Shown here one piece after another: positions 1,336 to 20,106 of a DNA stretch of 20,332 nucleotides (position 1 is its first letter; every line of letters starts with the position of its first letter). The DNA is from a virus. A program made the position numbers and the translations under genes. The notes beneath the pieces were generated by a model. It was not told the origin of the DNA, ran no database searches, and saw nothing but the letters and a program-made list of their open reading frames with translations. The stretch lies in IMG/VR virus record IMGVR_UViG_3300022707_000037, positions 1-20,332 of that record; one strand, written 5' to 3'.

Positions 1336-1453
1336 AAGCTTTAGCCTTTTCTTTATAATCTTTAGAACTAGTTGAACGCCATCGAAAGTATGCTATAAGC
1401 ACACTCCCAATGACAGTCAACAAAGGAATAATAGTAACTAAGAAAGTAATCAT
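1232..1453 (-). CDS. Candidate i-spanin (short Rz-like inner-membrane protein)
   Basis: The 73-aa protein has one N-terminal membrane anchor (about residues 2-23, ITFLVTIIPLLTVIGSVLIAYF-like) followed by a basic, alanine-rich, probably helical tail (DYKEKAKAYGKQAKKNAN and onward) that would lie in the periplasm. This fits a type II inner-membrane spanin subunit, though it is much shorter than lambda Rz (153 aa). Its start overlaps the holin stop as ATGA, implying translational coupling, and the o-spanin candidate is embedded in its second half in another frame. The position directly after holin and endolysin supports the assignment. An alternative is a second small membrane protein of the holin/antiholin class. 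Confidence 0.58.
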   Translation of the reverse strand: MITFLVTIIPLLTVIGSVLIAYFRWRSTSSKDYKEKAKAYGKQAKKNANAILSTASDAIKQLRDRANRKNTKS

Positions 1454-2911: not shown

Positions 2912-5131
2912 TTATAATACCTTTCTTATTTCTATTTGTGTATAAACTTCAACTTCACCGAAACCAGTTGCTCGTCCGAAACCATCATCTGTTTGTGTTG
3001 AATCAGCTTCATGCTGTACTTCAATAACCTTTGTATCTGCTAAAGTAAATTTATCTATACCAACTGATATAGTAGTATTTCTACTGCCAGAATCACTTGT
3101 TGCTTGAGTACTTGTACCTGCCGCTATTAATACTGCATCTGTTACATTAAATAAATATGATTGATGTTCTTCAGTTCTATGTGCAGGAGCACTCCATGAA
3201 ACTTCGTAATCCCCGGCTGGTAATGTAATCTGATTACTTGTAACTGATGCACCTGTTATTTCATTAATACGAATTGTATTCAAATCTCTAGTACGTTTAG
3301 CACCAGAAGTAAATGTGCCGCCATCTGTATCCGACGCTTTTTCATCTACGACAATCAGAAGTTTTTCTGTTAATATATCTAATATTGCTCTAGCTTCAGT
3401 AGGGGATAATGTGCCAGCATTGCCAGTATCTTTTCGTCCCACGAAAGTACTAGCTGCTATTGTCAAGGGTAAAGGTGTATCATCTGCAACTGCTAAAAGA
3501 ATAGTTTGTGCATTAAAATCTGTCTCCATAACAGCACCAGCAGCATCAACATTTGCAGTATCTGTTACATCAGCTGCAGTTTCTATTCCAGCTAATTTAG
3601 TTTGTTCAGCATCTGAAAACTCATTTGTATTGGCATTATTTTCATAAGCTGTTTTTATTTCAGCATCTGTTTGATCTGCAGTAGCTGCAGTTTCTATTCC
3701 AGCTAATTTAGTTTGTTCAGCATCTGAAAACTCATTTGTATTGGCATTATTTTCATAAGCTGTTTTTATTTCAGCATCTGTTTGATCTGCAGTAGCTGCA
3801 GTTTCTATTCCAGCTAATTTTTCTATTCCAGCTAATTTAGTTTTTTCTGTATCAATAAAAGGATTATCATCCTGAGTAGCAACTTCAAAAGCTTCAACTT
3901 TATCTATTGTATTATTTAATATATATAAAGTTGCACCATGCTTTTTAAAGAATAAAGAAATTGCCGACGATCCTGTTGACACATCAACAGATATATTATC
4001 GAAAGAAGCTGTGCTGATATCCCATGCAACAGTTAAAGTATATTGAAATAGTTCACCTGTATCATTAGCTAAGACAAACATCTTCAAGCCATCATCCTTG
4101 AAGTATACATCACTCATTTCGATCATTTCTGATGTAGTAGAAAAGGATACAGAATCATAAGTAGCTGTACTAAGATCATATGCGATAGTTAAAGTATATG
4201 ATTCGATAGAAGTAGTGGCACCTGCGTCATCAGCAATAAACAATTTCAAACCATCTTCTCTGAAAAACAGATCCCTAGCATTACTTATTTCTGCTCCAAA
4301 AGTAAGTTTCACAGCGTTATGAACAGCAGTTGTTAAATCAAATGCCACACTAAGATCATATTCAAACAAACCCGTAGTGCCACCAGATACAACAAACATT
4401 TTTAAACCATCAGGACTTAACCAAACACCTTGACCAAAAATTACTTGTGTAGCAGTAAAAGTTTGTCCTATATCAAAAGATGCTGATGATACATCCCATG
4501 CAATACTTAAAGTGTACCGAAAAACTTTTTTACTTGTAAAATCTATAATAAACATTTGTAGGCCGTCATCTCTTATGAAGATACCAGCAGGGACTGTTGA
4601 TTGTGCTGATACATCAAAATCATTTTTAACAATGACATTACTTAATGTCCATGGTTCAGAAGCCAACCTATTTAAAGCATCAGAAACAAAAGTTCCAGTT
4701 ACATCACTATCATTATCAACTTGAGAAGCATCATAATCCGAAGCCTCTGCAACAACCGCACCAGTTCTTGTGAATACTGAAGTTAATGTATTAACTTGTG
4801 CTCCTGCTTCTATACCAGTTAATTTATCAAATAATGTATCTGTAAAAGCTTTAACTTCAGCTTCGTATAAAGCTTTAATCTCGGCTCCCGTTTGATCAGC
4901 AGTAGCATTAGCTTCTATACCAGCTAATTTAGAACGTTCAGAAACAGTCATAAGTAATTTTACTATTCCTTCTGTTATATCATCAGAAGTATCAGTCGTT
5001 AAATTAAAATCACTATCTACAGCGTCTTCTAATACTTGACGTACTCGTGTAGCTGTTATATCTCTATTACCATTAGAAGTAATAAGAGCAGTAATTTGTG
5101 CTATTAATGCAGCTCTTGCTTTTGAAGCCAT
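2912..5131 (-). CDS. Tail fibre with propeller-like repeats and C1q/TNF-like tip
   Basis: The 739-aa protein is modular. Residues 60-115 hold two KLAGIE/KLTGIE coiled fibre repeats, and SVFTRTGAVVAEASDYDASQ (118-137) is a common fibre linker. Residues 180-418 contain five related repeats of about 50 aa, each with F..DGL.MFV...... and YTL..AWD.STASFD, matching beta-propeller blades. Residues 429-520 return to KLAGIE...TDAEIK repeats, two of them identical. The C-terminal about 140 residues (VDEKASDTDGGTFTSGAKRT from 596 on, ending in an EVEVYTQIEI segment) match the jelly-roll tip found on many podovirus fibres. AGGAG precedes the start. It is probably a trimeric receptor-binding fibre; sugar or protein specificity cannot be read from sequence. 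Confidence 0.85.
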   Translation of the reverse strand: MASKARAALIAQITALITSNGNRDITATRVRQVLEDAVDSDFNLTTDTSDDITEGIVKLLMTVSERSKLAGIEANATADQTGAEIKALYEAEVKAFTDTLFDKLTGIEAGAQVNTLTSVFTRTGAVVAEASDYDASQVDNDSDVTGTFVSDALNRLASEPWTLSNVIVKNDFDVSAQSTVPAGIFIRDDGLQMFIIDFTSKKVFRYTLSIAWDVSSASFDIGQTFTATQVIFGQGVWLSPDGLKMFVVSGGTTGLFEYDLSVAFDLTTAVHNAVKLTFGAEISNARDLFFREDGLKLFIADDAGATTSIESYTLTIAYDLSTATYDSVSFSTTSEMIEMSDVYFKDDGLKMFVLANDTGELFQYTLTVAWDISTASFDNISVDVSTGSSAISLFFKKHGATLYILNNTIDKVEAFEVATQDDNPFIDTEKTKLAGIEKLAGIETAATADQTDAEIKTAYENNANTNEFSDAEQTKLAGIETAATADQTDAEIKTAYENNANTNEFSDAEQTKLAGIETAADVTDTANVDAAGAVMETDFNAQTILLAVADDTPLPLTIAASTFVGRKDTGNAGTLSPTEARAILDILTEKLLIVVDEKASDTDGGTFTSGAKRTRDLNTIRINEITGASVTSNQITLPAGDYEVSWSAPAHRTEEHQSYLFNVTDAVLIAAGTSTQATSDSGSRNTTISVGIDKFTLADTKVIEVQHEADSTQTDDGFGRATGFGEVEVYTQIEIRKVL
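3573..3838 (-). repeat. 111-bp perfect tandem duplication plus 18-bp duplication in fibre gene
   Basis: Two adjacent 111-bp units (3573-3683 and 3684-3794) read as identical base for base, and a third partial copy covers 3795-3820. Directly beside it an 18-bp unit (TTCTATTCCAGCTAATTT) is duplicated at 3803-3820 and 3821-3838, producing KLAGIEKLAGIE. All periods are multiples of three, so the fibre frame is kept and shaft length changes by 37 or 6 residues. Perfect identity at synonymous sites implies a recent event. Confidence 0.93.
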
Positions 5132-5140
5132 AATATTCTC

Positions 5141-5248
5141 CTATATATTGAAATCATCATTAAAATCATTATTAAAATCAGCAGCATTAAGAAATATTTG
5201 CTTTAAAATTGGGCTAAGTAATTGATCTAATATTACACTTTGTGTCAT
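5141..5248 (-). CDS. Small protein, 35 aa, unknown
   Basis: A 35-codon ORF fills the space between two virion genes. It starts MTQSVILDQLLSPILKQI and ends in a short asparagine/aspartate repeat (DFNNDFNDDFNI) encoded by near-duplicated AT-rich DNA. AGGTGA stands about seven bases before its ATG, and its stop lies within the leader of the fibre gene, where the next AGGAG follows at once. That spacing fits a real cistron in this tightly packed operon. The N-terminal half could form an amphipathic helix. No family is recognised. It may be a genuine mini-protein or a leader whose translation assists the fibre gene. Confidence 0.5.
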   Translation of the reverse strand: MTQSVILDQLLSPILKQIFLNAADFNNDFNDDFNI

Positions 5249-5255
5249 AAATCAC

Positions 5256-5579
5256 CTATTTAATTAAAGCCAAATATAAAGATCCAGGAACTGTAATTAA
5301 AGCTCCAGCAACTGCTCCAATTCTATACTCCATAGCTGAAGTTAATTTAGACTCTCCAGCTTCTTCATCATCTATAGTATATCGTCTAACAACACCTATA
5401 TTTGTATCACTTTCTTCATTACGTCTTTGAACAACTACTTCGCCAGTAAACTGTCCTCCAGTACTAACTATACGAGCTGTAAATTTATCATTTATTGAAA
5501 ACCAATCTGTAAATTTTCCGGCCGCAATATCTGCTGCTGTAAGAGTTACTTCTTGAATATTATTTAGTGAGTGAGGCAT
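5256..5579 (-). CDS. Small virion-type protein, unknown
   Basis: The 107-aa product is beta-rich in appearance: VTLTAADIAAGKFTDWFSIN (11-30), KFTARIVSTGGQFTGEVVVQ (32-51), then RRYTIDDEEAGE and a YRIGAVAG...PGSLYLALIK ending. This alternation resembles small head or tail decoration proteins encoded among phage structural genes (a beta-sandwich with an 'EYRIG...G' edge), but no named family can be assigned. It has a clear AGGAG site and sits between two other small genes in the host-recognition section, so a role as an accessory of the spike or fibre is inferred. Confidence 0.6.
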   Translation of the reverse strand: MPHSLNNIQEVTLTAADIAAGKFTDWFSINDKFTARIVSTGGQFTGEVVVQRRNEESDTNIGVVRRYTIDDEEAGESKLTSAMEYRIGAVAGALITVPGSLYLALIK

Positions 5580-5591
5580 TTTATTCTCCTG

Positions 5592-5861
5592 TTATGTTTT
5601 AGGTCTTGCTGCTTTAATAGCATCACGATCTGCTTTAACAGCAGCATTTCCTCGTTCAAGAATATCATCAATTAAATCATAAATACTTAACCAACCTTTT
5701 AATTTATAATCTTCTTGTCTAAGTTGTCTCCATGTTTTAGGTGGATTTATAAATGCTTGTAATTCAGGGTCATTATCAGGAATACTTTCTAATGCAAATT
5801 CTTGTTGTCTAGCAAAACTTCCTGTAATATTTCCATTTTGATTTCTACTTATATATCTCAT
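5592..5861 (-). CDS. Small protein with tail-accessory-like organisation, unknown
   Basis: The 89-aa product begins with a short beta-like N-terminus (MRYISRNQNGNITGSFARQQ), an acidic linker (ESIPDNDPELQAFINPPKTW) and a helical second half (RQLRQEDYKLKGWLSIYDLI onward, ending AIKAARPKT). An N-terminal 'residue-G-x-I-x-x' hairpin followed by a D-D-P-E-hydrophobic segment recalls XkdW-like or tail-fibre-assembly-like small proteins next to fibre genes. It lies just after the tailspike with a GAGGTAA site before its ATG. Function is not established; a chaperone or attachment role for spike or fibre is inference. Confidence 0.55.
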   Translation of the reverse strand: MRYISRNQNGNITGSFARQQEFALESIPDNDPELQAFINPPKTWRQLRQEDYKLKGWLSIYDLIDDILERGNAAVKADRDAIKAARPKT

Positions 5862-5863
5862 AA

Positions 5864-7819
5864 TTATTTACCTCTTATATCTTTCCAACCTAGTGTTGCT
5901 ATTTTTGTTTGATCCATAGTACTAACATTAGCTCTAATACGAATTTGACCAAGTGTATTAGTCCTTACAAAAATTAAATGTGAATTTTTACCTGCTGAAG
6001 AAGCTCCATCTGTATCTGTTGTGATACTTCCTAAAGGAGCAGCAGTAACAGAAGCAATTTCATCATTTACATCAGGTGATGAAACATATAAAGTAACATC
6101 AACTGTAGCATCATTAGCAAAAATATTCATTCTAGCTTCAACTTTAATATCTTCTGGAACTGATAAAACATATAATATCGCAGTAGTTGATTGCGATCCA
6201 GTATCCACATCTAAAATTGGACTTTTCAATAAAAAATCATCTCCTAATTGTACAAAATTTATAATATTAGCAGAAGCATCAGTAATAATTGAACCAATTC
6301 TACGAAACTTTGTAAATCCTACTGGAATATTTGCTGCTATAACTGAAGTATCAAATCCTATATCTATAGAACTATCACTATCTTTTTCAATAATAAATAC
6401 ATGATAAGTAGTACTAGCAGCTATAGTACCAGAAAAAAGACCTCCAGCATCATCCCCTACAGCAAATGTAGCATCTAATTGTTTAGTTATTTCAGAAGTT
6501 AAAGTAAGACTTGAAGTATTTGTACTATCTATTGCAGAACCATTAGTAATATTTATATCATGAGCTGTATCAGTATCATTAGACAAAATAAGACCAGAGA
6601 TTTGTGAGAAAACACCTGCAACACTAACAGGGAGAGCTAACCAAGCAGGAAGACCTGTACCATCAATAGTAAGAACAAATCCAACTGCACCTGCAGGCAA
6701 TAAAATAGGTGCTCCTGTAGCATCAAAAGTAATTATATCTCCTGCAGTTGCATTAGCTAATTTAGCAATAGTTACTGCCCCATCAGCTAATTTAGCTGTA
6801 GTTATTGATCCATCAGCAAGTCCTCCAGAAGGAACTAATGAACTAAAATCATTTTCATAGAAATGAGTTTCATTATTAAATGAAGTATAATCATCACTAA
6901 CAAAAGCTAAAGTATTATCTATATTAAAGAATATTGTTCCTACATTAGGACCGGGTGATACATGTCTTGCATAAGAATCAGTAATTGTTACACCTCTAAC
7001 ATCTTTAGTATGTAAAGGAAATTTCCAACCATCTGCAGCAGTAAGCCCAATAAATAATAATCTAGTAAAATAAGCTGATCTAGTAATATCAGTAACTAAT
7101 GCTGTACTTGTAATATCAATAGCGGTTAAAGTAGTTTGATCTGTACGCATTGTAAAGTCCATACCCATTACAAATTGTGCAGCTTCATCAATTTCAGCAC
7201 CTGTATCAAATAAGAATAAAGGACCAACACCACCAGTATGATTAATGATAGTATTTTGTATACCATCACCTCTGACTATAACCATATCTGCTGCAGTCAT
7301 ATCTAATGATACATTTACATTATAAATACCTTCAGGAAAATAAAGAATTGCTTTCAATCTGGTATTAACTGCAGCAACAGCTAGTAATAAAGCAGCAGTA
7401 TCATCTACTATACCATCTCCTACTGCACCAAAATGTTTAACATTTATAATTTTATCATCTGTAAATCTTCTCCATGCACCTAGTGCTGTAACTACACCAC
7501 TAGCAAATATATGACCACCATCTGCTGATGCAGGAGCTAAGGTAGGATCAAAATAAAATATTCCTCCACCTTCATCACCTAATAGACTATACCCTTCAAC
7601 TAATACAGTAGAATGAAGAGTAGGATCTACATATTCACTAACTGTAGGATCAAGAGCAGTAGTATTATTAGCAAATATAGAAACATCTGTAATAACTTTA
7701 GAAATACTGATACTTTGTAAATCTAAAGTTACACCTCCTCTATTTTGTTGAACATTACCTTTTCCTAAACGAAGATCTTGTTCTACAGCTAATTCTTTAG
7801 TTATAACTCTTGTTGTCAT
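5864..7819 (-). CDS. Tailspike with pectate-lyase-type beta-helix
   Basis: The 651-aa protein starts with a short virion-anchor-like N-terminus (KELAVEQDLRLGKGNVQQNR, 8-27). It then shows the pectate lyase superfamily signature INVKHFGAVGDGIVDD (125-140) and YFPEGIYNV (160-168), opening a right-handed beta-helix of about 170 residues. A linker with repeated LADGSITTAKLADGAVTIAK (334-353) and TFDATGAP...TIDGTGLPAW (364-393) leads to a C-terminal domain (about 400-651) containing YHVFIIEKDSDSSIDIGFDT and FRRIGSI, which recur at the ends of many phage fibres. AAGGAG precedes the ATG. The protein should bind, and possibly cleave, a host surface polysaccharide; catalytic residues cannot be assigned, and the short helix leaves open that it only binds. 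Confidence 0.83.
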   Translation of the reverse strand: MTTRVITKELAVEQDLRLGKGNVQQNRGGVTLDLQSISISKVITDVSIFANNTTALDPTVSEYVDPTLHSTVLVEGYSLLGDEGGGIFYFDPTLAPASADGGHIFASGVVTALGAWRRFTDDKIINVKHFGAVGDGIVDDTAALLLAVAAVNTRLKAILYFPEGIYNVNVSLDMTAADMVIVRGDGIQNTIINHTGGVGPLFLFDTGAEIDEAAQFVMGMDFTMRTDQTTLTAIDITSTALVTDITRSAYFTRLLFIGLTAADGWKFPLHTKDVRGVTITDSYARHVSPGPNVGTIFFNIDNTLAFVSDDYTSFNNETHFYENDFSSLVPSGGLADGSITTAKLADGAVTIAKLANATAGDIITFDATGAPILLPAGAVGFVLTIDGTGLPAWLALPVSVAGVFSQISGLILSNDTDTAHDINITNGSAIDSTNTSSLTLTSEITKQLDATFAVGDDAGGLFSGTIAASTTYHVFIIEKDSDSSIDIGFDTSVIAANIPVGFTKFRRIGSIITDASANIINFVQLGDDFLLKSPILDVDTGSQSTTAILYVLSVPEDIKVEARMNIFANDATVDVTLYVSSPDVNDEIASVTAAPLGSITTDTDGASSAGKNSHLIFVRTNTLGQIRIRANVSTMDQTKIATLGWKDIRGK

Positions 7820-7829
7820 TATTATCTCC

Positions 7830-10649
7830 TTATTTATAGAGTATTATATCATCACCAATTTGATAACCTAAATAACCTTTTTTTAATAATTCTTTTCTAA
7901 CATTAAAATCATCTTCTTTTAATCTAGATACAGTAGCTGTTTTACCTAATAAAATAGTTAATATATCTTCTTTAGCTATTCTATATCCATGTACTTTTCT
8001 TTCTTTAACTCTTTGAGTTGCTGAAGTTAGTTTTTTAACTGCTTTTGATCTACTTGTATTATATTGAAATCCTGAACCAAAAGAACCTATTTTTTCAGTA
8101 ACTTCTTTTCCTAATTTAGAAACTCCAAATATAGTTTCTACAGGAATACTAGATATATCTAAACCTTCTTTAATATTTTGTATCTGAATATCTCTTAAAT
8201 CTTGACCTATACGACTAGTCATAAGTTCATCAGTACTTTTAAAATCTAATATTCCCATTAACTCTTTAATAGCTTTATCATCTAAAGGTTTTTCTAGAAC
8301 TCTTATTAATGTAGTTCCTAAAGTAACTTCTTTAGCTTTTCTAGTACCTATAAAAGAAAAAGCCCTTTGAAATATATTAGAACTCATTGCGACTCTCATT
8401 CTATATGCTAAATCTGTTCCTATTCCTGAAGATACTCCTGTTGTTGTTGGTCCTCCTCTTAATCCTGCTAAAACTGGATCAATAGTATATACTTTACCCA
8501 TTTGATTAACTAATTGTTTTATATTTTTAGCTTGTGAAGATTTAAATTTTTGTCTTGAAATCTCTTCAGATAATGTAACAAAATTTATACCTAGAATTTC
8601 ATTAGTAATAGGATCTTTAATAGCATGTCTACCTATTAAATTATTAGCAACTTCTACTTCTATAGCTTCTGCAGCCCAAGGTATTCTTTTTATTACTCTT
8701 TCATATACCTTATCTCCAGTACTTAAATAATCTATAAATATTTTACTTTGTTCTTCTTTATTAGCTCTACGTAATTTTAAAGCACTAACTAGAATATCCT
8801 CTTTATTTGCAAACATATCTTCTCTAATATTAAGAGATATTTTATATCCTTCATGCCAACTAGTTAATAGTTCATTAGATTCTCTTTTTACAACATCAGC
8901 TATTTTTCTGTCTAAATTTCTTATTGATGCTTTTACAGCACTTTTTTGACCTTCTGCTAATTCTTCTTTTCTTAAAAAATCTGCTATTACTGTTCTAGTA
9001 TCTGCTAAATCTTTAATAGTAGTTTTACCTGTTAATTTATCTACAGGTATACGAGCTAAAAATTCTTTTATAATTCTATCTTTAATAGGATTTTCTATGT
9101 TAATTTTTAATGCTCTATTTAATGGACCTATAATTGATAAATTATAATTAAATTTAATGCCTAAAGGTATTAAATTTGGTCCAATATCTCCTATTATTTT
9201 TTTTGTACTTGCATAAGAAGCCTCTGAGTCTGTAATATAAGTATCTAATTTCTTTTGAAATTCTGTTACTGCTGAAGGATCTCTTAATTGATTCATCTCT
9301 CTTTTAAGTTCTTTAGCTCTTTTACTAGCTTCGTCAGCCATTACATTAGCTGCTTTCATATTTTGACTACCAGCTAATAATACAAGAGGTGAAATTCTTC
9401 CTGTTCTTGCAGGTTCTCCAGTTTGAGATAGAATTCTAATTTTATCATCAACAGAAATTTTAGTTATATTATTTATTTTCATATAAGTTGTAAATATTTG
9501 ATCTGCTTGTTTTTCTGTAATATTCATCATATTAATCATTATAGGAACAGATCTATTAGCTTGAAGTTTACTTATAGCTCCTTTACCTATATTAAATATA
9601 CTTTTAGTTGTTCCAATACCTGCTTTTAATATTCCTGCGCCACCAATAGTAAATAATACATCAGTAAATGCAGCATCTGCCATTTGATTAATAACTCTTA
9701 ATTCATCTATATCTTCTTTAAGTTCTAAAGAGTTAAAAATTATATCTGCAGCACGACCTGTTCCTGCCCCAGTAGCACCACCAATTAAAATTGATGCTCC
9801 AAATACTCCTAATTTAGCTAATGCTGTAGGAGGTGTAGCAGCAGGAATAAATTGAGAAGCTAGTTTTGTTCCTATCGCTAAACCTCCAAATGCTCCTCCT
9901 ACTGCACCTACTGTTTCAAATTTAGCAGCAGAAATAGATTGCCATAAACTAGGAGTTAAAATATCAAATATTTTAGGATCATTAGGATTTTGTATAACTA
10001 ATTCTGCATTAGGAATAGCTATATTAAATAAAGGATCTTCTGGTCCTATAAATTGTTGCTTTTCAGTACCTATATTTAATACTTTACGAATTTCAAGATC
10101 AGGAAGTAATCTTTGTAAACCTATTAAAACATTTTGAGTTACATCAGCACTATCTTGTGCCATTTCTATTCTAGAAATAGGATCTCCAAGTAAAGCTTGA
10201 CCTAATTTAATAGGTTGATATTTAATATGAATATTTTCAAGTTTAGCAACTATCTCAACAGGATCTAATGGTCTATCTGGTAATATAAAACGAGTAAAAA
10301 ACTCTCTTTGTACAGGATTTAAACTACTTAAAAGTTCTGACTCAGGATTATCTAATTCATTTAATATTAATTCTTTATTCTCTTCAGTTTTTACAGGTGT
10401 AAAAGTTTCTTCAGAAACTAATTGAGTATCAAATTCATCAGGTCTAAGAGGAGTAGATACTTCAATAGGTTCTAAAGGTTCAATTAATTGTTTTTTAGTA
10501 ATAGAAGGTATTTGTACTGAAAGTGACTCTACTGCAGATGAAGCTTCTAAAGAATCAATACCTTGATTAACCATAGAATTTATAATATCGTTTGGATTTA
10601 GTCCATCATCCAAAGCTTGCTGTACTGCTTGTGTATTTATATCAGCCAT
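7830..10649 (-). CDS. Large internal virion (ejection-type) protein
   Basis: This is the longest gene in the window (939 aa). The first about 20 residues resemble a UBA-like helix pair (INTQAVQQALDDGLNPNDII), followed by an acidic, proline-containing stretch to about residue 130. Three glycine-rich hydrophobic segments (about 247-265, 279-300 and 331-345, such as GAVGGAFGGLAIGTKL) could insert into a membrane; the remainder is mainly helical and basic. Length, composition and position fit the large ejected core proteins of podoviruses (role analogous to T7 gp16 or P22 gp16), which form a conduit for DNA across the envelope. No lysozyme motif is seen. The ATG overlaps the portal stop (TAATG), so the two are translationally coupled. 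Function is inferred. Confidence 0.6.
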   Translation of the reverse strand: MADINTQAVQQALDDGLNPNDIINSMVNQGIDSLEASSAVESLSVQIPSITKKQLIEPLEPIEVSTPLRPDEFDTQLVSEETFTPVKTEENKELILNELDNPESELLSSLNPVQREFFTRFILPDRPLDPVEIVAKLENIHIKYQPIKLGQALLGDPISRIEMAQDSADVTQNVLIGLQRLLPDLEIRKVLNIGTEKQQFIGPEDPLFNIAIPNAELVIQNPNDPKIFDILTPSLWQSISAAKFETVGAVGGAFGGLAIGTKLASQFIPAATPPTALAKLGVFGASILIGGATGAGTGRAADIIFNSLELKEDIDELRVINQMADAAFTDVLFTIGGAGILKAGIGTTKSIFNIGKGAISKLQANRSVPIMINMMNITEKQADQIFTTYMKINNITKISVDDKIRILSQTGEPARTGRISPLVLLAGSQNMKAANVMADEASKRAKELKREMNQLRDPSAVTEFQKKLDTYITDSEASYASTKKIIGDIGPNLIPLGIKFNYNLSIIGPLNRALKINIENPIKDRIIKEFLARIPVDKLTGKTTIKDLADTRTVIADFLRKEELAEGQKSAVKASIRNLDRKIADVVKRESNELLTSWHEGYKISLNIREDMFANKEDILVSALKLRRANKEEQSKIFIDYLSTGDKVYERVIKRIPWAAEAIEVEVANNLIGRHAIKDPITNEILGINFVTLSEEISRQKFKSSQAKNIKQLVNQMGKVYTIDPVLAGLRGGPTTTGVSSGIGTDLAYRMRVAMSSNIFQRAFSFIGTRKAKEVTLGTTLIRVLEKPLDDKAIKELMGILDFKSTDELMTSRIGQDLRDIQIQNIKEGLDISSIPVETIFGVSKLGKEVTEKIGSFGSGFQYNTSRSKAVKKLTSATQRVKERKVHGYRIAKEDILTILLGKTATVSRLKEDDFNVRKELLKKGYLGYQIGDDIILYK

Positions 10650-12532
10650 TAAAATGCACCTTCATTAGTATTTTGAGGTAGTTTTAATTCTTGACTTAAA
10701 GGTTGTCCTGTATTATCAGTAGGTCTACCTGCAACTATTCTTTCTTGAACTGATCCACCTTCAATAAGAGAAGCAGTATTTTCTAATATAGTTCCTATTT
10801 CTTTAGAATATCTAGTTTTCATAGTTTGTAAAGATAATCCAGCTATTTTAAAGAAACCAGCAGGATTAACAGCTAATAAAGATTGACCTATATTACCTGA
10901 TAATACTGTTTCTATCATAAGTTGATTTTTTTCATCTTCATCATTAAAAGCAGTAGGTATAACTTTTACGTCAACTTTTGTAAATGCTACTTCAGTATCT
11001 TTTTCAGGAATAGGAGCAATAATTAAATTACCTTCATCATCAATTAAATTTTCATTTGTAGCAGGATCTTTTACTTCTTCGAACAAAAATTGTACTTCAG
11101 GTTGACCAGTTAAAGGATCTATTTCTCCTGTAAGAACAGTCATAGGTTTATTAATTTCTGCCCATCTAAATCCAGTAAGTTCATCTGCAATTCTTAAAAC
11201 TTGATGAGCAGTATAATATTGACGAACTAAATTAATAACATCTTGACCAAGTAATTTATAATATTGTTGTATTCTTTTTGTTAAATATCTTAAAGCTAAT
11301 ATAGTAGCATTTTGTTGAAGTTTAACTTTTCTTCCACTATCAGAAGCAAAAGCTAATCCAAGAAAACTATCATTTATTCCTAAAACTCTTTGTATACGAT
11401 CTAAACCTTTATCAATAATAGTATATTGGTCTAAAATATCTTTAGACATACTTTCAACTTTAATTCCTGCTAAACTAGTAACTTCAATAACACCATTAAT
11501 TCTATTAACCATGTTAGAAAATTTACTTATATCTTCTACTGCAGTAGTTTCTACGAAAACTTTTTCTGTATTTACTAATAATTGAAGTTTAATAACAGCT
11601 TGGTTAATAGCTTTCTGAGATTCTTTAACCTCTCTAAATACACCATAATATTCTGAACGATCTGATGTATGAATACGTTGTACTCTATAAGGATTTTTAA
11701 CATCTTTATGGCTTACTTCTTGTCTACTAATTTCTATATCTCCAGACCAATGTATAGACCATGTTTTTTCATCTTCATCAGTAATAATAGTATGACATAT
11801 TAAATAATTATTAAATATTCTAAAATGACCACTAAACTGTCCTGAAGAAGAAGTTCTAAAATCATTTCCATTTAAAAAATGTCTTCCGCTACTATGTTGA
11901 AAATCAAATTCAGCTTCTTCTACCTGTAAAAAATTATCGTAAGCTGTAAGCTTAGCTAAAATTTCTTCTCCGTATAAAGTTCTAACTACATCTTCAGGAA
12001 GCCATTTAAATCTATGAATATATCTACCGTCTGAATAATCATCTTTTACACTCATAGGATCAAGAACAATTTCAGAAGAAGGAATATAATCTATTGTTAC
12101 TTTTCTTATAGGACGACCAAACTGATCTTTTTCTCCTGTTTCTATTACATCTATAAAAGAAACTATTATTCCATTTATTATAGCTGATAATTTTAATTTA
12201 TCTCCTAAAGATTCAAGATCATTATCTTCAAAAATATTATCGACAACATCATTTAGTAAAGAAGCAATTTCTATATCTTCTCGTTGAGTAGGAAAAACTG
12301 TAACAGTATTAATAACTGTTGAATAATAACCTACCATCATTCGAGAGAATAATTTTATAACATTAAAAGTTTCTTTTGGTTGACCTCTAGCTTCTAAAAT
12401 ATTCTCTTGTTCAATAGTATACTGACGATTATGAAACATATTCCAGATCTCTTCAGCTTCAACTCTAGATCCAAAAAAGGTATCATAACCTATTTTAAAA
12501 GTATCTTTTAATGTTTCAATATCAGCTTTCAT
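10649..12532 (-). CDS. Portal protein, P22-like family
   Basis: The 627-aa product has the layout of P22-type portal proteins: an N-terminal helical region with TFNVIKLFSRMMVGYYST (55-72), IDYIPSSEIVLDPMSVKDD followed by SDGRYIHR (147-174), the stem region YYGVFREVKESQKAINQAVI (295-314), GINDSFLGLAFASDSGRKVK (385-404) and a long helix with a basic/aromatic pattern (RYLTKRIQQYYKLLGQDVIN). P22 gp1 is about 725 aa, so this is a compact member. It would form the dodecameric ring at the capsid vertex through which DNA is packaged and ejected. It lies after the adaptor, nozzle and two internal-protein genes rather than ahead of scaffold and capsid, which is unusual. A weak GAGAAA site precedes the start. 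Confidence 0.85.
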   Translation of the reverse strand: MKADIETLKDTFKIGYDTFFGSRVEAEEIWNMFHNRQYTIEQENILEARGQPKETFNVIKLFSRMMVGYYSTVINTVTVFPTQREDIEIASLLNDVVDNIFEDNDLESLGDKLKLSAIINGIIVSFIDVIETGEKDQFGRPIRKVTIDYIPSSEIVLDPMSVKDDYSDGRYIHRFKWLPEDVVRTLYGEEILAKLTAYDNFLQVEEAEFDFQHSSGRHFLNGNDFRTSSSGQFSGHFRIFNNYLICHTIITDEDEKTWSIHWSGDIEISRQEVSHKDVKNPYRVQRIHTSDRSEYYGVFREVKESQKAINQAVIKLQLLVNTEKVFVETTAVEDISKFSNMVNRINGVIEVTSLAGIKVESMSKDILDQYTIIDKGLDRIQRVLGINDSFLGLAFASDSGRKVKLQQNATILALRYLTKRIQQYYKLLGQDVINLVRQYYTAHQVLRIADELTGFRWAEINKPMTVLTGEIDPLTGQPEVQFLFEEVKDPATNENLIDDEGNLIIAPIPEKDTEVAFTKVDVKVIPTAFNDEDEKNQLMIETVLSGNIGQSLLAVNPAGFFKIAGLSLQTMKTRYSKEIGTILENTASLIEGGSVQERIVAGRPTDNTGQPLSQELKLPQNTNEGAF

Positions 12533-12534
12533 AA

Positions 12535-14001
12535 TTATTTCTCAAGAGTAAAGATACGTTCTGATGCAGGAGTAACTTGCAATTCAATTTGCCCAGTACT
12601 CTCTTCATCTTCTCCAGTAAGTAAAAATCCTTGTATAGCATTTAATCTACTATCAATACCACTTATTAAATTATCCACATCTTCTACTGATGTTCCAACT
12701 CTAAATTTGACTACATCAGGATCTTCAAGATTTAATACAGTATCTATATCTGATCTTAATGTTTGTAAACTTACTTTAAATTGCTCTAATACTGGACCTA
12801 ATTGTTGTTTAAGATCTCCAAATGCTTCTCTAAAAGATTGTATTTCAACTTTAGTTAAAGCAGTACCAAATAAAACATGCCTAATTACATTTCTATATGC
12901 TCCATAAGCAGTTCTTCCTTTAAGTCCTCCCACATTATCAGAGAAATATTTTCTTACATTTATAAATGCACTATCAATAAAACCAGTAGATTTTGCTTTT
13001 AATTCAGTAGAAGCTATATTACCTAAAGAAACTAGTTTATTTAATGCAATTATTCTTTTTTCATTCGCTGAACTAATAGCAAGTTGTTTATCTATTGCTA
13101 TCATTTCAGAAACTAATATACTACCTTTTCTTCTTTGTTTAGGATCTTTAGGATCTAATTGATCTAATTGATCTCTAATTTCTGCGGTTGCTCCAGCTTT
13201 TCTTTCAAATACTCTAGGTCTTTGTGCTTTTGCAGAAGGAATTAATCCTGCTTCTCTACCTACTGTAGCAGCACTTATAACAACTTGTCTTTGCTCATCT
13301 GTCATTTCTGATAAAGCTACTGCAGTTTGAAAAGCTTGTGTAGTGTTAGCTCCTGCAACTTTAGACCCTCTTAATATATTTGTAATATCAGCTTCAGTTT
13401 TTCTAATTTTAACTTTTCTTTCTAATTTAGTTAGTTCAGCATCTTCTAATCTTTCAAATAAACCAGTAGCTGTAAATGCAGGAAGTAAATCAATAATTTC
13501 TGTTTGTCCTGCACTATTAGTAGTTTTTATATATCTTTTTACACTTTCTTCTTCAGCAAATAAATCAGGATCTATAATACCTCTTTGTATTGCTTGATCT
13601 ATAAGTATTTTATCATTAACCAAATCTATTTTTTGGAATGAAACAATTTCTGGTCCTCCTGCAGCTTCTGCTTTCCTTATTCTAGGATTATTCCTAAACA
13701 AATCATTTAAAAATCTAGGATCTCCAGTTTTTAAATAAGGTTTATAAGCTTGAAATGAAGTTTCTTTATCTAATGCACTTCTAGTAGTACGTAATTCTTC
13801 TGACATTATTTCAAATTTTAAATCGTTTAATTCTTCTTGTGTTTCAAATTGAGCTTCAGCACGTTCTTCTCTACTTGATCTACGTTCTTCTTCTCTACGA
13901 TCTTGTTCTGCTTTATTACGAGTAGTAATAATAGCTCGTGTTGTTTCACCAGCAACTGCTTGTCTTCTTAATCTATTAGATAATGTAAATGCGTCTGCCA
14001 T
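12535..14001 (-). CDS. Helical internal virion protein
   Basis: The 488-aa protein is almost entirely charged and helical. Residues about 25-75 (RNKAEQDRREEERRSSREER) form a strongly charged coiled coil, and the last third holds a region (AYGAYRNVIRHVLFGTALTK, then EIQSFREAFGDLKQQL and FKVSLQTLRSDID) that recurs in ejection-type proteins of podoviruses. No signal peptide or membrane segment is present. It lies between the glycine-zipper protein and the portal with two-base spacing, so it probably belongs to the set packaged around the portal and delivered with the DNA. The assignment rests on context and overall character. Confidence 0.6.
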   Translation of the reverse strand: MADAFTLSNRLRRQAVAGETTRAIITTRNKAEQDRREEERRSSREERAEAQFETQEELNDLKFEIMSEELRTTRSALDKETSFQAYKPYLKTGDPRFLNDLFRNNPRIRKAEAAGGPEIVSFQKIDLVNDKILIDQAIQRGIIDPDLFAEEESVKRYIKTTNSAGQTEIIDLLPAFTATGLFERLEDAELTKLERKVKIRKTEADITNILRGSKVAGANTTQAFQTAVALSEMTDEQRQVVISAATVGREAGLIPSAKAQRPRVFERKAGATAEIRDQLDQLDPKDPKQRRKGSILVSEMIAIDKQLAISSANEKRIIALNKLVSLGNIASTELKAKSTGFIDSAFINVRKYFSDNVGGLKGRTAYGAYRNVIRHVLFGTALTKVEIQSFREAFGDLKQQLGPVLEQFKVSLQTLRSDIDTVLNLEDPDVVKFRVGTSVEDVDNLISGIDSRLNAIQGFLLTGEDEESTGQIELQVTPASERIFTLEK

Positions 14002-14010
14002 CTTTATTGC

Positions 14011-14781
14011 CTATGATATAATATCTGGTTTACGTCCTGGTATAGGTATTCTATTAGGATCAAAAGTACGTCCGAAATCTTCAACTCCAGAACCTCCAAA
14101 ACCTCCTGCAAAAATACCTCCAAGATCTTCAATAGCTGCTCCAAATTCTCCTTGTATAACTCCAGCAGATGTTGCAGCAGTTGCAGCAGCTTCAGTTGCT
14201 CCAGTTGCAAAACCTAGAAGAACATTAGCTTTGGCTCTTAAAGCATTAGTAACTCCTTGTTGGATAGGTAGTTTTTGACCTATACCTAAAGCTAAAAATT
14301 TAGATGTTGCTTCAGCAACTTTAAATGGTGCATCTGTTCTAATTTGTGCTCTACCTTTAGCTCTTTGAGCTTCTAAAAGTATATCAGTAGATATTTCTAT
14401 ACCACTACCAGAAATACCTCTTTGTGCAAATTCTGCTCCTAATCTTTGTCTTGTTATTTGAAATTCTTTTTGCAAATTCTGTAATCCTAAAGCAACAAAT
14501 CTTTCAGGTGTTAAACTAGAAAAGAAACTTGATAAATTATCTTCTATACCTCCATATATAGACTCCCAATCAGATAAAAATTCTTTAGCAACATCCACAC
14601 CTTCTTTTGCTGCTTTTAATGCTCTTGCTCTATCTGCAGCTGCCGCTGCAGAAGCAGCTTCTGAAGCTCCTGCTGCTTGAGATGATTCTATACCTGCTCC
14701 TACTGCACCACCAATAGCTGCACCTACAGGACCTCCAACTACTCCTCCTAATGCACTACCTATTGAACTAAATATTCCCAT
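14011..14781 (-). CDS. Glycine-zipper ejection protein (P22 gp7 / T7 gp14-like role)
   Basis: The 256-aa product opens with MGIFSSIGSALGG and a glycine-zipper run (9-30, GxxxG-spaced small residues such as GGPVGAAIGGAVGAG), followed by an alanine-rich helix (35-62). A second, less regular hydrophobic glycine/alanine region occupies about 190-235. The middle (FQITRQRLGAEFAQRGISGS) is the part most often shared with small DNA-transfer proteins of podoviruses. Glycine zippers promote membrane insertion and oligomerisation, which suits a protein that opens the outer membrane during ejection. It is followed by another internal-protein gene in the same run. The role is inferred from architecture and context. 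Confidence 0.68.
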   Translation of the reverse strand: MGIFSSIGSALGGVVGGPVGAAIGGAVGAGIESSQAAGASEAASAAAAADRARALKAAKEGVDVAKEFLSDWESIYGGIEDNLSSFFSSLTPERFVALGLQNLQKEFQITRQRLGAEFAQRGISGSGIEISTDILLEAQRAKGRAQIRTDAPFKVAEATSKFLALGIGQKLPIQQGVTNALRAKANVLLGFATGATEAAATAATSAGVIQGEFGAAIEDLGGIFAGGFGGSGVEDFGRTFDPNRIPIPGRKPDIIS

Positions 14782-14782
14782 A

Positions 14783-15238
14783 TTAAACCTCTATAATATC
14801 AGCATTTCTTAATGCAGTTAAAATTTCATTTATTTTAGAAGCATTATTATCAACACCATCATCAACTGTAATAGCCTCACTTTGAACATAACCAACACTT
14901 GGATTTGCTTTAATATACGATGTATCGGTTATTGCTGATTGTTCTTCATTATTACTACTATTTTCATTTAAAAAACCAACATCAATTATATCTCTATCAT
15001 TTTGTAAATTAAATTCTTCACTATATCTTTTAATATTATCAAAAACTTGTCCTGCAAAAGTTTGAGCAGATACTGCATTAGATATTCCTGCTGCTTCTGA
15101 ACTTCCTATAAATCCTTGTTGTCCTCTATTTCCAAAAGCAATATCTAAATTTTCAAGTAATTGTAATAAAAATCTACGAAGAATCAAAGGATCATCAACA
15201 TTAGGTGGAACTTCCATGAATGTTACATTATCTGCCAT
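14783..15238 (-). CDS. Small conserved podovirus virion protein, unknown
   Basis: The 151-aa reading uses the ATG at 15238 because GGGAG stands five to six bases upstream; an upstream ATG at 15271 would add 11 residues deep inside the nozzle gene. The N-terminus (FMEVPPNVDDPLILRRFLLQ) shows the PP-x-hydrophobic-DP-x-x-LRR-x-L pattern seen in small proteins encoded beside nozzle genes in many podoviruses, followed by a helix (LLENLDIAFG). The C-terminal half is acidic and asparagine/serine-rich with a final helix (ASKINEILTALRNADIIEV). It overlaps the nozzle stop by 11 bases. A minor tail or ejection-complex role is inferred only from position. Confidence 0.6.
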   Translation of the reverse strand: MADNVTFMEVPPNVDDPLILRRFLLQLLENLDIAFGNRGQQGFIGSSEAAGISNAVSAQTFAGQVFDNIKRYSEEFNLQNDRDIIDVGFLNENSSNNEEQSAITDTSYIKANPSVGYVQSEAITVDDGVDNNASKINEILTALRNADIIEV

Positions 15239-17063
15239 TTTGTCTCCCGTATACTTTATTCTCCCATTCAAATATAATGCCAGTTCCTGTAACTTCTAAT
15301 TGAAGAGAATAACCTCTATGTTGTTCATGAAGTACTTTAATTTCTCTAGTATCTTTTAGACCACTAAAATCAACTTCTTGAGCTAAATCATTATCAATAA
15401 ATACTTTTATATTAATATCACCTTCACAATGAACATAAATATTTTTATATATTTTATGTTCTGAATAACCATCCTCTATAAATTTTTGACTTTTATAACT
15501 TATAATTTCATTATCAGGTTCTGTAAATAATGTATGTAGAGTTCCATTTTCTATTCCATATAAAATATCTTCAGCAATAAATACTTTTTCTGTACCAAGT
15601 TTAAATCTTTTAAAAACTAAATCTAATCTAGCATCAAGAGCTATTATACTATCTCCTACTTCTTGAAGATAATAAACTTCATCATGTACTACTGCATTTA
15701 CAGGATTAAGATTAACTTTACCTAATTTATCTTTAGATTTTACTTCTACTCTACCTCCATTAGATCCACATATACCATCATTTGAAACCCAAAGTAAAGT
15801 ATCAGAAATAGAAGCTATACTATCATGATTTTTACAACCTTGATCTCTTGATAAAATAAATCTTGTAAATACTGAACTATCTGTCCCAGAAACAATCCAA
15901 GTTTTAAATTCATCAAAAATTAATAATCCATTAGGAGTTACACCAATTCCTGTAATATCTCTTTGAAAATCAATAAAATTAAGGTTAGGCCAAATATTAG
16001 GTTTATCTATATTTGTAAAATGTAATCTACGTCCTACTACTCCAAAGAAAATAGAATTATTCTCAATTAAAAATCTTAATCCATCTGGTGCTGGTCCTGT
16101 ATTTAAAGTTTCTAAAATATCTCCAGGTATTTCTGTATCACCTAAAGAATCAGTAAAAGTTGTAGTAGCATTAGTTATAGTAGCAACTAGAGATATCTCT
16201 GTTAAATTTCCACCAATACGATAAATTTTCTTCTCATCAACTTGAGGATCTGAAGATACTTCTAATGCAGTTAAATCAATTTCTCCACCTAAATCTACAA
16301 CTATATCATCACTTAAAGGAGCTGATCCACTTTCTGTTCTATCTGAAGAATTAAAAAATGTGTATGTATATTGATATGTTCCTATAGGATGTTGTTCAAA
16401 TGTTGATGGAGCTTCTTGATTTCCAGATATATCTAAAATATTGTCAACTAAAGTTCCTGTAGGAGTAACAATTGTTCCAACTAAAAAGAATACTCCTTGG
16501 AAACGTCTATATACTTCTAATTTGTTATCAAAATTCTCTACTTCTTTTATAGTAATATCGGTATCATTAGCTAATTTAGTTTTTATAGTTTTTGTAAAAG
16601 TTTTAGAGAAAATACCACTAGCTGTTACATTAACTAATTTATATTCAATTAAAGAATTTAAAGGTAATGCACCATTAACTAATGTTGTATTAAATCCTGT
16701 AGGTGCTACAGGAGCACTTTCTTTTATTGCTACAGTAGATTTAGTAGTTGGAACTTCAATTCCTAATCTAAAATTAGTTATTCCATCTAATGTCTTTTTA
16801 GGAAAAGAAGAAGGTTCACTAAAATATAATCTTTTATCATATTCTACATAATGTCTTTCATCATTAGAACTAACAAATAATCCTTGTTCAATAAAAAAGA
16901 AAGGAAAAAGACCGACAGTTATAGCAGTATCAGTTTTCTTTTTAACTGGAGTCATAGAACCTTTAAAATTATCAATATTCTCATATATAACTGCTTCATT
17001 AGATCCAATTAAATGAGGATCTAATCTTGTACTTAACCCACCTGAAAACGCTCTATTTTTCAT
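15228..17063 (-). CDS. Tail nozzle / stabilisation protein (P22 gp10-like)
   Basis: The 611-aa protein begins with AFSGGLSTRLDPHLIGSNEA, the 'G-G-L..R..P..I...EA' opening of podovirus nozzle proteins, and continues with many short beta strands expected of a propeller. YRIGGNLTEISLVATITNAT and FTDSLGD (about 282-310) and a region with RDQGCKNHDSIASISDTLLW are typical of the family. Six copies would form the distal tube below the adaptor ring and hold or release DNA. The ATG overlaps the adaptor stop as ATGA, so adaptor and nozzle are translationally coupled, in the usual order. The C-terminus has a beta-sandwich-like tail. The family call is supported by several matching segments and by position. 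Confidence 0.78.
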   Translation of the reverse strand: MKNRAFSGGLSTRLDPHLIGSNEAVIYENIDNFKGSMTPVKKKTDTAITVGLFPFFFIEQGLFVSSNDERHYVEYDKRLYFSEPSSFPKKTLDGITNFRLGIEVPTTKSTVAIKESAPVAPTGFNTTLVNGALPLNSLIEYKLVNVTASGIFSKTFTKTIKTKLANDTDITIKEVENFDNKLEVYRRFQGVFFLVGTIVTPTGTLVDNILDISGNQEAPSTFEQHPIGTYQYTYTFFNSSDRTESGSAPLSDDIVVDLGGEIDLTALEVSSDPQVDEKKIYRIGGNLTEISLVATITNATTTFTDSLGDTEIPGDILETLNTGPAPDGLRFLIENNSIFFGVVGRRLHFTNIDKPNIWPNLNFIDFQRDITGIGVTPNGLLIFDEFKTWIVSGTDSSVFTRFILSRDQGCKNHDSIASISDTLLWVSNDGICGSNGGRVEVKSKDKLGKVNLNPVNAVVHDEVYYLQEVGDSIIALDARLDLVFKRFKLGTEKVFIAEDILYGIENGTLHTLFTEPDNEIISYKSQKFIEDGYSEHKIYKNIYVHCEGDINIKVFIDNDLAQEVDFSGLKDTREIKVLHEQHRGYSLQLEVTGTGIIFEWENKVYGRQNGR

Positions 17064-17890
17064 ACGAAACCTTGATAATCTGTATGATGATCTCCTATAC
17101 TATAACCCATAGCAGCATCTTTTTTAGCTTTAAATATTTTAGCAGCATACATACTTAAATATTTTTCACTCATTCTATTATCCATTGTATCTTGATCTGC
17201 AGCAAAAGCCATATGAATAGTATAATATTTTAAAGCTATATCAAAATTACTATCTATCTCAATAATTGAATTAATATCAGTTAACTCACCTGGTTTCCGA
17301 TCAAAAAATACTTTAATAACTCCTCTATCATCTGCATTTGCAGCTACACCAAATGGAGGAACTATAAAACCATCTTCTTTTGCACTATCATCAACATTAG
17401 CAATTACACCAAAAGGATTACCTGTACTAACTGTACCTATTGTTAAAAGAACACCTAAAGTATTAGGATTAAAAGTATAAGGTGTTTTAGTTATATCTCT
17501 TAATATAGGATATATAGTAGCATTACGTCTATCTTGTAAATCGAATATTAATGCTAAAGGATCTGGACCTTCGTCACATTCCCAAAACCTAGAAGGATGA
17601 TGTTCTTCATGTTGACCATCTAAATCTTGATGTGTCAAGAATGAAATTTTAGTTCCATTATATAAAACACGAGTAGGTAGAAAAACTTCATTAGGAAGTA
17701 AAAGAAATCTTACGTCATCATCTATAAAAAATTCTATATCTCCTTTTAAAAGTTTATTACTAATTACTGCTTCTTTATAACCTTCATTTAAAAAACGAAT
17801 TAGTTGTTCAGTCGTCCAACGAGCTGATGGAAGTGCATCTGCTAGTAAGTCTCTAGCACCTTCTAATATATCTTCTATACGAGTAGGCAT
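17060..17890 (-). CDS. Head-tail adaptor protein
   Basis: The 276-aa protein begins with an adaptor-type helical hairpin (ILEGARDLLADALPSARWTT then EQLIRFLNEGYKEAV, about 8-38), the 'RW(S/T)..EL..(W/F)LN.G..E' pattern of podovirus adaptors. A beta-rich middle (FFIDDDVRFLLLPNEVFLPT and onward) follows, and a C-terminal helical part (IALKYYTIHMAFAADQDTMD, then YLSMYAAKIFKAKKDAA) matches the adaptor-family end with its Y-x-x-x-x-A-x-x-x-D spacing. A ring of these proteins would dock under the portal and receive the nozzle. Residues about 140-190 hold two similar segments (NPFGVIANVDDSAKEDG and PPFGVAANADDRG) that look like an internal duplication. It follows the 43-aa basic gene directly. Confidence 0.77.
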   Translation of the reverse strand: MPTRIEDILEGARDLLADALPSARWTTEQLIRFLNEGYKEAVISNKLLKGDIEFFIDDDVRFLLLPNEVFLPTRVLYNGTKISFLTHQDLDGQHEEHHPSRFWECDEGPDPLALIFDLQDRRNATIYPILRDITKTPYTFNPNTLGVLLTIGTVSTGNPFGVIANVDDSAKEDGFIVPPFGVAANADDRGVIKVFFDRKPGELTDINSIIEIDSNFDIALKYYTIHMAFAADQDTMDNRMSEKYLSMYAAKIFKAKKDAAMGYSIGDHHTDYQGFV

Positions 17891-18022
17891 TTATTTCTTT
17901 CTAGATTTACCTGCTTTGCGTAATGCAATAGCTATTGCTTGTTTTCTAGGTTTACCTGCTTTAATCTCTGTTTTTATATTTTTAGATATTACTTTTTTAG
18001 ATTTACCTTTTTTAAGAGGCAT
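17891..18022 (-). CDS. 43-aa basic protein, DUF6496-like
   Basis: This short gene is complete: its stop abuts the adaptor start with no gap, and its ATG lies one base after the stop of the preceding basic gene. The product begins [20 protein letters not shown] and continues [18 protein letters not shown], a pattern I recognise from very small phage proteins of the DUF6496 type ('MPLKKG.S.K.ISKNIKT...G.P.KQA.AIA...AG'). It is highly basic. AGGA lies upstream at a reasonable distance. The molecular role is unknown; nucleic-acid binding, in the virion or during packaging, is inferred from charge. Confidence 0.8.
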
Positions 18023-18023
18023 A

Positions 18024-18209
18024 TTATTTTTTCCTTTTATGACCACTTTTACCTTTTGCTTTGATTTTAGCTTTTGCAGCTCTACCTTTAGCCTTAGCTT
18101 TATTTAATGTTTTAAGTCCAGCTTTAATTTTAGTTTTACTTTTTGTTTTAAATGCTTTTACTATATTTCTTTTATTCTTTGCTTTTTCTTTAGGTGTATG
18201 ATCGGGCAT
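18024..18209 (-). CDS. Lysine/alanine-rich small basic protein
   Basis: The 61-aa product is almost entirely lysine, alanine, glycine and arginine after a short start ([20 protein letters not shown]); the second half has histone-H1-like [20 protein letters not shown] runs and ends GHKRKK. There are no hydrophobic segments or acidic patches that would suggest an enzyme. Its start module (AAAGGATAAAATA before ATG) is identical to that of the preceding gene. Together with the following 43-aa gene it forms a pair of extremely basic proteins between head and adaptor genes. A DNA-condensing or packaged role is inference; no named family is assigned. Confidence 0.7.
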
Positions 18210-18222
18210 TATTTTATCCTTT
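18207..18222 (-). promoter_or_regulatory. Repeated ribosome-binding/start module
   Basis: The 16-base string CATTATTTTATCCTTT (plus sense) occurs here and again at 18442-18457. Read on the minus strand each gives AAAGGATAAAATAATG, a Shine-Dalgarno sequence and start for the 61-aa and 69-aa genes. Identical initiation modules suggest matched expression or copying of a small gene cassette. Confidence 0.7.
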
Positions 18223-18234
18223 ATAATTAAACTA

Positions 18235-18444
18235 TTAATCTCTATGTAGTAATTCCATATCTTTTATATTTAAACAATAAGCTTCAGCAACAGGTCGTAA
18301 TTTTATTGTATCAACATAACCATTACATGTATCGCTACCAGGCATAATATCACGAAGACGACCAATTACTATATCTCCATTATGATCTATTGCTTTAACA
18401 TAATCTCCATCTTTTGCTTCTTTTCCGTCTTTAAAATGTGGCAT
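18235..18444 (-). CDS. Small beta-barrel-like phage protein, unknown
   Basis: The 69-aa product reads MPHFKDGKEAKDGDYVKAID, then NGDIVIGRLRDIMPGSDTCN, and ends AEAYCLNIKDMELLHRD. The G-D-x-V-K and V-I-G-x-(L/V)-x-x-I-x-P-G-(S/T)-D-(T/S)-C spacing suggests an SH3/KOW-like barrel and recalls small proteins encoded near capsid genes in other podoviruses. Two cysteines (about positions 40 and 57) are present. It is the first gene after the terminator-like hairpin, with AAGGA upstream. No function is assigned; a minor virion or regulatory role is possible. Confidence 0.62.
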   Translation of the reverse strand: MPHFKDGKEAKDGDYVKAIDHNGDIVIGRLRDIMPGSDTCNGYVDTIKLRPVAEAYCLNIKDMELLHRD

Positions 18445-18470
18445 TATTTTATCCTTTTAATCAGGGAAAT

Positions 18471-18496
18471 GGATTAGGCTAATTAAAGCCTAATCC
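18471..18496 (-). terminator. Terminator-like hairpin after capsid genes
   Basis: GGATTAGGCT (18471-18480) and AGCCTAATCC (18487-18496) form a perfect 10-bp stem with a six-base loop. It lies in the gap after the capsid and small head-protein genes. The tract that follows on the minus strand is only ATTT then CCC, so intrinsic termination may be partial. It could reduce read-through or protect the 3' end of abundant capsid mRNA. Confidence 0.62.
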
Positions 18497-18519
18497 TAAT
18501 TTCCACAAGGTTAGATGAT

Positions 18520-18927: not shown

Positions 18928-18940
18928 AATTTAGTCCTCC

Positions 18941-20074: not shown

Positions 20075-20106
20075 TTTCTAGCTCCTTTCAATAGTTAAAA
20101 TCTAAA

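Follow-up and report, generated by a model that had tools for sequence, protein, structure and literature searches.

Position of the portal gene in the late operon of a podovirus related to Kafunavirus

Portal placement in described phages and in the window

PMC8472413 names KF1 as the only phage officially classified in the genus Kafunavirus, and states that the phages attributed to this genus would split into four genera at 70%. Our literature search, for which many subscription papers were beyond reach, included PMC3569283, PMC8472413, PMC10232697, and PMC10386132 and returned no discussion of portal position in this group. The original prediction held that in most podovirus late operons the portal comes before scaffold and capsid, and we compared 12 described phages (picked by similarity or by hand, not at random). 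The claim holds for nine of them, in which the portal precedes the capsid: P22, Pan3, Mwe-JY07 (its capsid recognised by its place in the tree of major capsid proteins, MCPs), Parlo, POI1126, LASTA, HMO-2011, BPP-1 (in this phage and HMO-2011, the gene annotated as head-tail adaptor was taken as the portal), and N4. Two phages go against it, Helicobacter phage KHP30 and Bacillus phage phi29, in which the portal follows the capsid; the arrangement described below is therefore not unique. The remaining phage, PBC5, is undecided: upstream of its portal stand the gene for the terminase small subunit and two further genes, and no capsid is annotated in the stretch read.

The window, i.e., the whole stretch of DNA that was analysed, is a virus record of 20,332 bases carrying podovirus late genes, all on the minus strand. 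The features are listed here from the scaffold end, with the evidence for each.

20107-20331, minus: scaffold-like ORF, 3′ part; open ORF that runs off the window end, named by position only
18941-20074, minus: major capsid protein, 377 aa; phrog_334 (E 1.5e-62), PF13252 (E 6.5e-10)
18520-18927, minus: small head protein, 135 aa; position after the capsid, phrog_20969 (E 2e-14)
between small head protein and adaptor, minus: two small ORFs; from the ORF listing
17060-17890, minus: head-tail adaptor, 276 aa; phrog_399, PF24175 (SU10_adaptor, E 4.5e-08, above the cut-off)
15228-17063, minus: tail hub protein ("nozzle"), 611 aa; phrog_511 (E 1.5e-71)
14783-15238, minus: small protein, 151 aa; ATG at 15238 with Shine-Dalgarno (SD)-like GGGAG before it (162 aa from TTG at 15271 in the ORF listing)
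14011-14781, minus: ejection-type protein, 256 aa; phrog_21132 "DNA ejection" (E 1.2e-30), glycine-rich N-terminus read from the sequence
12535-14001, minus: internal protein, 488 aa, directly upstream of the portal; phrog_21081 (E 6.5e-50)
10649-12532, minus: portal, 627 aa, P22-type; PF16510 (E 7.2e-77), phrog_156 (E 2.2e-75)
10659-10663, minus: GAAGG, SD-like sequence for the 939-aa gene, in the last codons of the portal gene; duplex energy -6.2 kcal/mol
10647-10651, minus: TAATG, one-base overlap of portal stop and 939-aa start; read from the sequence
7830-10649, minus: large internal (ejection-type) protein, 939 aa; phrog_21759 (E 6.5e-33)
5864-7819, minus: tail spike/depolymerase-like protein; PF12708 (E 7.4e-12), phrog_4250 (E 1.7e-12)
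far left of the window, plus: part of a DNA ligase gene and a small nuclease gene

The original prediction placed the portal after the capsid, adaptor, nozzle, and two internal proteins; the coordinates, the reading frames, and the PF16510 match all confirm this, and the score of that match (259.7 bits, with a curated cut-off of 26.1) assigns the protein to the P22-type portal family. The TAATG overlap that it described is likewise exact, with TAA at 10651-10649 and ATG at 10649-10647 sharing one base.

Several of the names in the list rest wholly or partly on position. The scaffold-like ORF occupies the place of the ORF that precedes the capsid in PH1, KF-1, VPMS1, and Amaethon. The small head protein has, besides its main family match, a weak match to a virion structural family (phrog_486, E 0.014). 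Its main family, phrog_20969, is labelled "Rz-like spanin", a name also carried by the RefSeq records NC_019420, NC_031908, and NC_021776; since the gene stands in the head block, this label is likely a misannotation of a head protein. Compared with solved structures, the adaptor profile matched 26fb (E 2.1e-13), 8jov (E 5.3e-05), and, weakly, 7wmp ("adaptor protein gp12", E 0.017). The nozzle is so named for its place after the adaptor and for the "phage stabilization protein" label of its homologue in MW202744; the description of phrog_511 itself is "internal virion protein", and the family profile matches the 8jov structure ("virion-associated phage protein", E 2.6e-26). For the small protein at 14783-15238, searches with family profiles gave E values of 0.055-0.08 at best. 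A glycine-zipper stretch was read at about residues 246-300 of the 939-aa protein, and another in the 256-aa protein. AlphaFold models of the 488-aa protein (helical, mean pLDDT 72) and the 939-aa protein (mainly helical, mean pLDDT 68) found no Foldseek match at E ≤0.001, and comparison of the profiles of the three internal proteins with solved structures gave nothing convincing.

Beyond the spike, the minus strand holds tail-fibre ORFs and small ORFs of a lysis region. A perfect 111-bp tandem repeat (2.2 copies, 3572-3820) lies within the tail-fibre gene at 2912-5131. At 1123-1453 (minus strand), two small overlapping ORFs in different frames resemble an embedded spanin pair, one with an N-terminal membrane-like stretch and the other with a lipobox-like LMLLNNC; the family search gave a weak result for the former and none for the latter.

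The scaffold, capsid, adaptor, gp10 (called nozzle here), ejection proteins, and spike of P22 follow one another in the same sequence as in the window, and the portals belong to one family. The difference lies in the portal gene: P22 has the order terminase-portal-scaffold, the placement that characterises P22-type (Lederbergvirus-like) phages, whereas in the window the portal has its place after the second internal protein and before the largest one. By position, the window order is thus that of P22 with one gene moved, the portal lying between the proteins at the places of gp20 and gp16. This positional equivalence is backed by the assignment of the 256-aa protein to a "DNA ejection" family and by the glycine-zipper stretches in that protein and the 939-aa one. 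A profile comparison of P22 gp7, gp20, and gp16 with the three internal proteins gave no match; since the same method also missed the P22 portal, nozzle, and adaptor, it has little power, and its result does not show that homologues are absent. Compared with P22, the portal gene would have moved once, from between terminase and scaffold into the block of ejection genes, a direction suggested by a few distant outgroups with long branches.

The likeness to phi29 noted here is one of gene order. Its portal (gp10, annotated as upper collar connector) also comes after scaffold, capsid, head fibre, and tail protein, but it is followed by gp11 and an appendage gene and is not among ejection proteins.

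Gene order and gene trees among relatives

We searched 50,697 phage records with the portal and capsid proteins (tblastn), keeping matches with coverage of at least 80%. The portal matched 12 records at 47-53% identity: PH1, KF-1, and VPMS1 (two records each), IW-1, ETP-1, ZHX, Amaethon, and two Manatee Spring genomes. The capsid, 52-61% identical to KF-1 and its relatives, recovered the identical set of 12. The window therefore shares with KF-1 and its relatives full-length homologues of both proteins, and it also shares their late gene order (scaffold, capsid, adaptor, nozzle, ejection proteins, portal, large internal protein), two features of the Kafunavirus-like lineage; a third, terminase genes upstream of the scaffold and usually divergent, would lie beyond the window, which ends inside the scaffold-like ORF. 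At the nucleotide level the relationship is distant: megablast of the 20-kb window against the phage records gave no match, and short-word blastn with a 7.4-kb stretch matched 2-14% of it at 66-72% in 10 records, with KF-1 covering 2% and VPMS1 absent. As far as an incomplete genome can be judged, the window thus falls outside the genus-level similarity to KF-1 (70% intergenomic, as used in PMC8472413). In sum, its sequence places it in the Kafunavirus-like lineage as a new and distant member that nucleotide similarity sets apart from the genus itself.

As the original prediction suggested, we compared gene order in the genomes with the nearest portal and capsid proteins, and found the same order in annotated relatives and in metagenomic loci. 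All six records read, i.e., Edwardsiella phage KF-1 (Kafunavirus), Vibrio phage VPMS1, Pseudoalteromonas phage PH1, Dickeya phage Amaethon, and the two Manatee Spring genomes MW202744 and MW202665, match the gene order of the window all the way from the scaffold position to the large internal protein, portal included. Past the late block, KF-1, VPMS1, and Amaethon also resemble it in carrying genes for a nuclease and a ligase in the opposite sense. The portal genes of MW202744, MW202665, and KX365747 were deposited as "putative terL".

Two sets of loci from viral contigs extended this comparison. The portal-selected set consisted of the best 80 of 139 confirmed loci together with the six records (86 loci, with 81 distinct portal DNA sequences). 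Within this set, the MCP lies upstream of the portal on the same strand in all 33 loci that reach the capsid (29 distinct), the nozzle lies upstream in 67/67, and ejection proteins lie upstream in 82/82, the other four loci having <700 bases before the portal. The large internal protein lies downstream on the same strand in 62/63 loci of the set, and on the opposite strand in one (L083). The capsid-selected set, the best 80 of 179 confirmed loci, was chosen independently of the sequence or place of the portal: none of its 80 loci has a portal upstream of the capsid, and 24 reach the portal. The terminase large subunit gene (terL) is upstream of the MCP in every one of the 71 of these best-80-of-179 loci that contain it; 65 have it divergent and six co-directional. 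These six (L191, L202, L203, L204, L208, and L213), with terL before the scaffold, show the P22 order minus the portal; a portal was looked for between their terL and scaffold and was not found. In every relative where it could be read, then, the late block runs from the scaffold-position ORF through capsid, (small head protein), adaptor, nozzle, and ejection proteins to portal and large internal protein, with terminase before the scaffold and mostly divergent. One genome scan for prophage relatives gave three loci, on 37-44 kb contigs of metagenome-derived assemblies.

A second portal upstream of the scaffold was looked for in the relatives, since the window itself ends inside the scaffold-like ORF, and was not found there: exactly one PF16510 match is present in each of the 47 related records >22 kb. 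A capsid family match is present in 43 of the 47, on the strand of the portal in 43/43. The MCP lies upstream in 37 of the 43 as the record is written, and in the other six only if the record is circularly permuted; in five of these six, the small head protein or adaptor comes after the capsid in the fetched stretches and reads in the expected sense, and the sixth, G018, has the capsid at one end of the record and the adaptor at the opposite end.

Quick maximum-likelihood trees of the portal and the MCP were built from the window and 26 loci holding both genes (27 rows). The two trees share 14 of 24 splits and differ in 10; label permutations, which ignore relatedness, gave a mean of 0.16 shared splits and a maximum of 3 in 2000. 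The path distances in the two trees correlate with r 0.73 (permutation maximum 0.28), and the main division of the clade is among the shared splits, with support of 99 and 99. The trees, whose comparison the original prediction had also proposed, thus agree, so the portal and capsid genes were largely co-inherited within the sampled clade. The separation of the portal from the scaffold-capsid block might also be read as the trace of a horizontal transfer, by which a capsid module lacking its own portal recently acquired one. We consider this highly improbable, given the 14 shared splits against a permutation maximum of 3 and the recovery of the same 12 phage records at >80% coverage for portal and capsid. 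Within the clade, recent acquisition is contradicted by the trees; only an acquisition that predates the ancestor of the clade would fit them.

Constant gene order and congruent trees indicate a stable character of the lineage, not a misassembly or a recent swap. The portal place in the window very probably reflects nothing more than the ordinary late operon shared by a lineage of Kafunavirus-like podoviruses. The order would have been fixed in or before the ancestor of the clade, probably once. The original prediction proposed a distinct lineage or a rearranged late module: the lineage stands, by the constant order in the clade that includes Kafunavirus and the congruent trees, and rearrangement is plausible, as nine of the compared phages, P22 included, have the portal before the capsid, but KHP30 and phi29 also have it after. 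Its view of the order as unusual falls by the test that it had set for itself, namely that the order be standard for a described genus, because the order is standard for the group that includes the ICTV genus Kafunavirus. The observation is true and its explanation is ordinary.

Junctions around the portal gene

In the window, the portal start is 2 nt past the stop of the 488-aa gene, and the portal stop overlaps the next start by the TAATG described above. Among the best 80 of 139 loci and the six records, 46 of 73 distinct portal downstream junctions overlap (42 of the 73 by the same -1 type as TAATG) and 24 more are ≤3 nt apart; upstream of the portal, 54 of 70 distinct junctions overlap. 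An SD-like core precedes the downstream start in 70/73 (any of six tetramers, a permissive criterion applied without a chance control). We counted overlaps at the junctions of the other late genes by one rule, under which the portal count is the 46/73 above: scaffold 1/23, capsid 2/30, nozzle 7/59, 256-aa protein 23/67, large protein 21/45, adaptor 30/41, and 488-aa protein 47/63. A start codon is found ≤15 nt from the stop in 73/73 portal junctions, whereas none is found at 15/23 scaffold, 7/30 capsid, and 45/59 nozzle junctions. Special coupling at the portal is rejected by these counts, the adaptor and 488-aa junctions overlapping at similar or higher rates; the portal belongs to a tightly packed part of the operon and does not stand out there.

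An extra or split ORF stands between the portal and the matched frame of the large protein in 7 of 53 loci; the coupling is therefore common but not essential. Examples of an extra ORF or a split large internal gene right after the portal are L009:6112-8822, L011:9128-13335, L052:10856-15200, and L023:11839-17090. In L009 the first ORF after the portal itself matches phrog_21759, and in L023 that ORF is a phrog_1645 virion protein.

We also examined expression signals. The SD sequence of the window portal is weak (-2.7 kcal/mol), with a median of -6.8 over 81 portal starts in related loci (not deduplicated); being weak in the window and ordinary in relatives, SD strength was dismissed as a mark of special portal regulation. 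Scans of 5000-20332 gave 62 promoter-like sites (shuffle mean 81.2) and seven terminator-like sites (shuffle mean 4.5), and lend no support to a separate portal transcript.

Overlaps on both flanks of the portal in most distinct loci, the close starts at every portal junction, unlike those of scaffold, capsid, and nozzle, and a gene order that is constant wherever visible might be taken to mean that joint nucleation of portal and internal core keeps the portal gene next to the ejection genes, with coupling fixing their ratio or promoting assembly at the ribosome. Portal and ejection core may plausibly assemble together, but as an explanation of the gene order we think this reading unlikely: the portal junction is no tighter than the adaptor and 488-aa ones, extra or split ORFs interrupt it in the loci counted above, and in KHP30 the portal precedes the terminase instead. 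Under the ordinary late operon of the lineage, the portal most likely functions as an ordinary portal, and no new mechanism would be needed. Tight packing on a shared stretch of mRNA would help to keep the translation of portal and internal core, the low-copy vertex proteins, roughly in step; the weak SD sequence of the window portal, set beside the median in relatives, counts against such matching.

KHP30 and the history of the portal place

KHP30 (Schmidvirus) shares with the window the portal family (phrog_156), the MCP family (phrog_334), and a portal downstream of the capsid; weaker matches link the beginning of its adaptor to phrog_399 (E 2.4e-05) and a portion of its large protein to phrog_21759 (E 3e-07). 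The last of these matches is found in a 1633-aa protein (L088:7994-12895), over about 120 residues. The gene order is different: large protein, adaptor, scaffold-position ORF, capsid, two ORFs, portal, and terminase.

The families in common could reflect a single ancient change, in which the portal came to stand after the capsid before the two lineages split, each then building its own order. In the portal tree rooted on P22, the Kafunavirus-like phages and KHP30 indeed form one group (100/98), but with long branches that drew a warning from the tool, and the MCP tree disagrees, placing KHP30 elsewhere, which implies two changes of portal place (one change is obtained in 4% of bootstraps). The context also differs strongly, as the large protein and adaptor of KHP30 precede its capsid. 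We regard the shared change as possible, though somewhat doubtful. It is compatible with the ordinary late operon of a Kafunavirus-like lineage, which remains our preferred explanation, and only dates the move of the portal.

A fuller scenario, which we offer as speculative and consider distinctly improbable as a whole, would place a single move of the portal, out of the packaging genes and into the vertex/ejection block, in a common ancestor with the KHP30-type phages. In the Kafunavirus-like phages, coupling to the core proteins would then have followed, with matched amounts of these proteins, joint building of the special vertex, and a nucleation that depends less on the synthesis of scaffold and capsid than it does in P22.

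The late gene order described here can be used as a marker for Kafunavirus-like phages in metagenomes, and could help to spot portal genes that carry the label "terL" or "hypothetical". Set beside P22, it also gives a natural contrast in which one may ask whether the operon position of the portal affects assembly of the special vertex.
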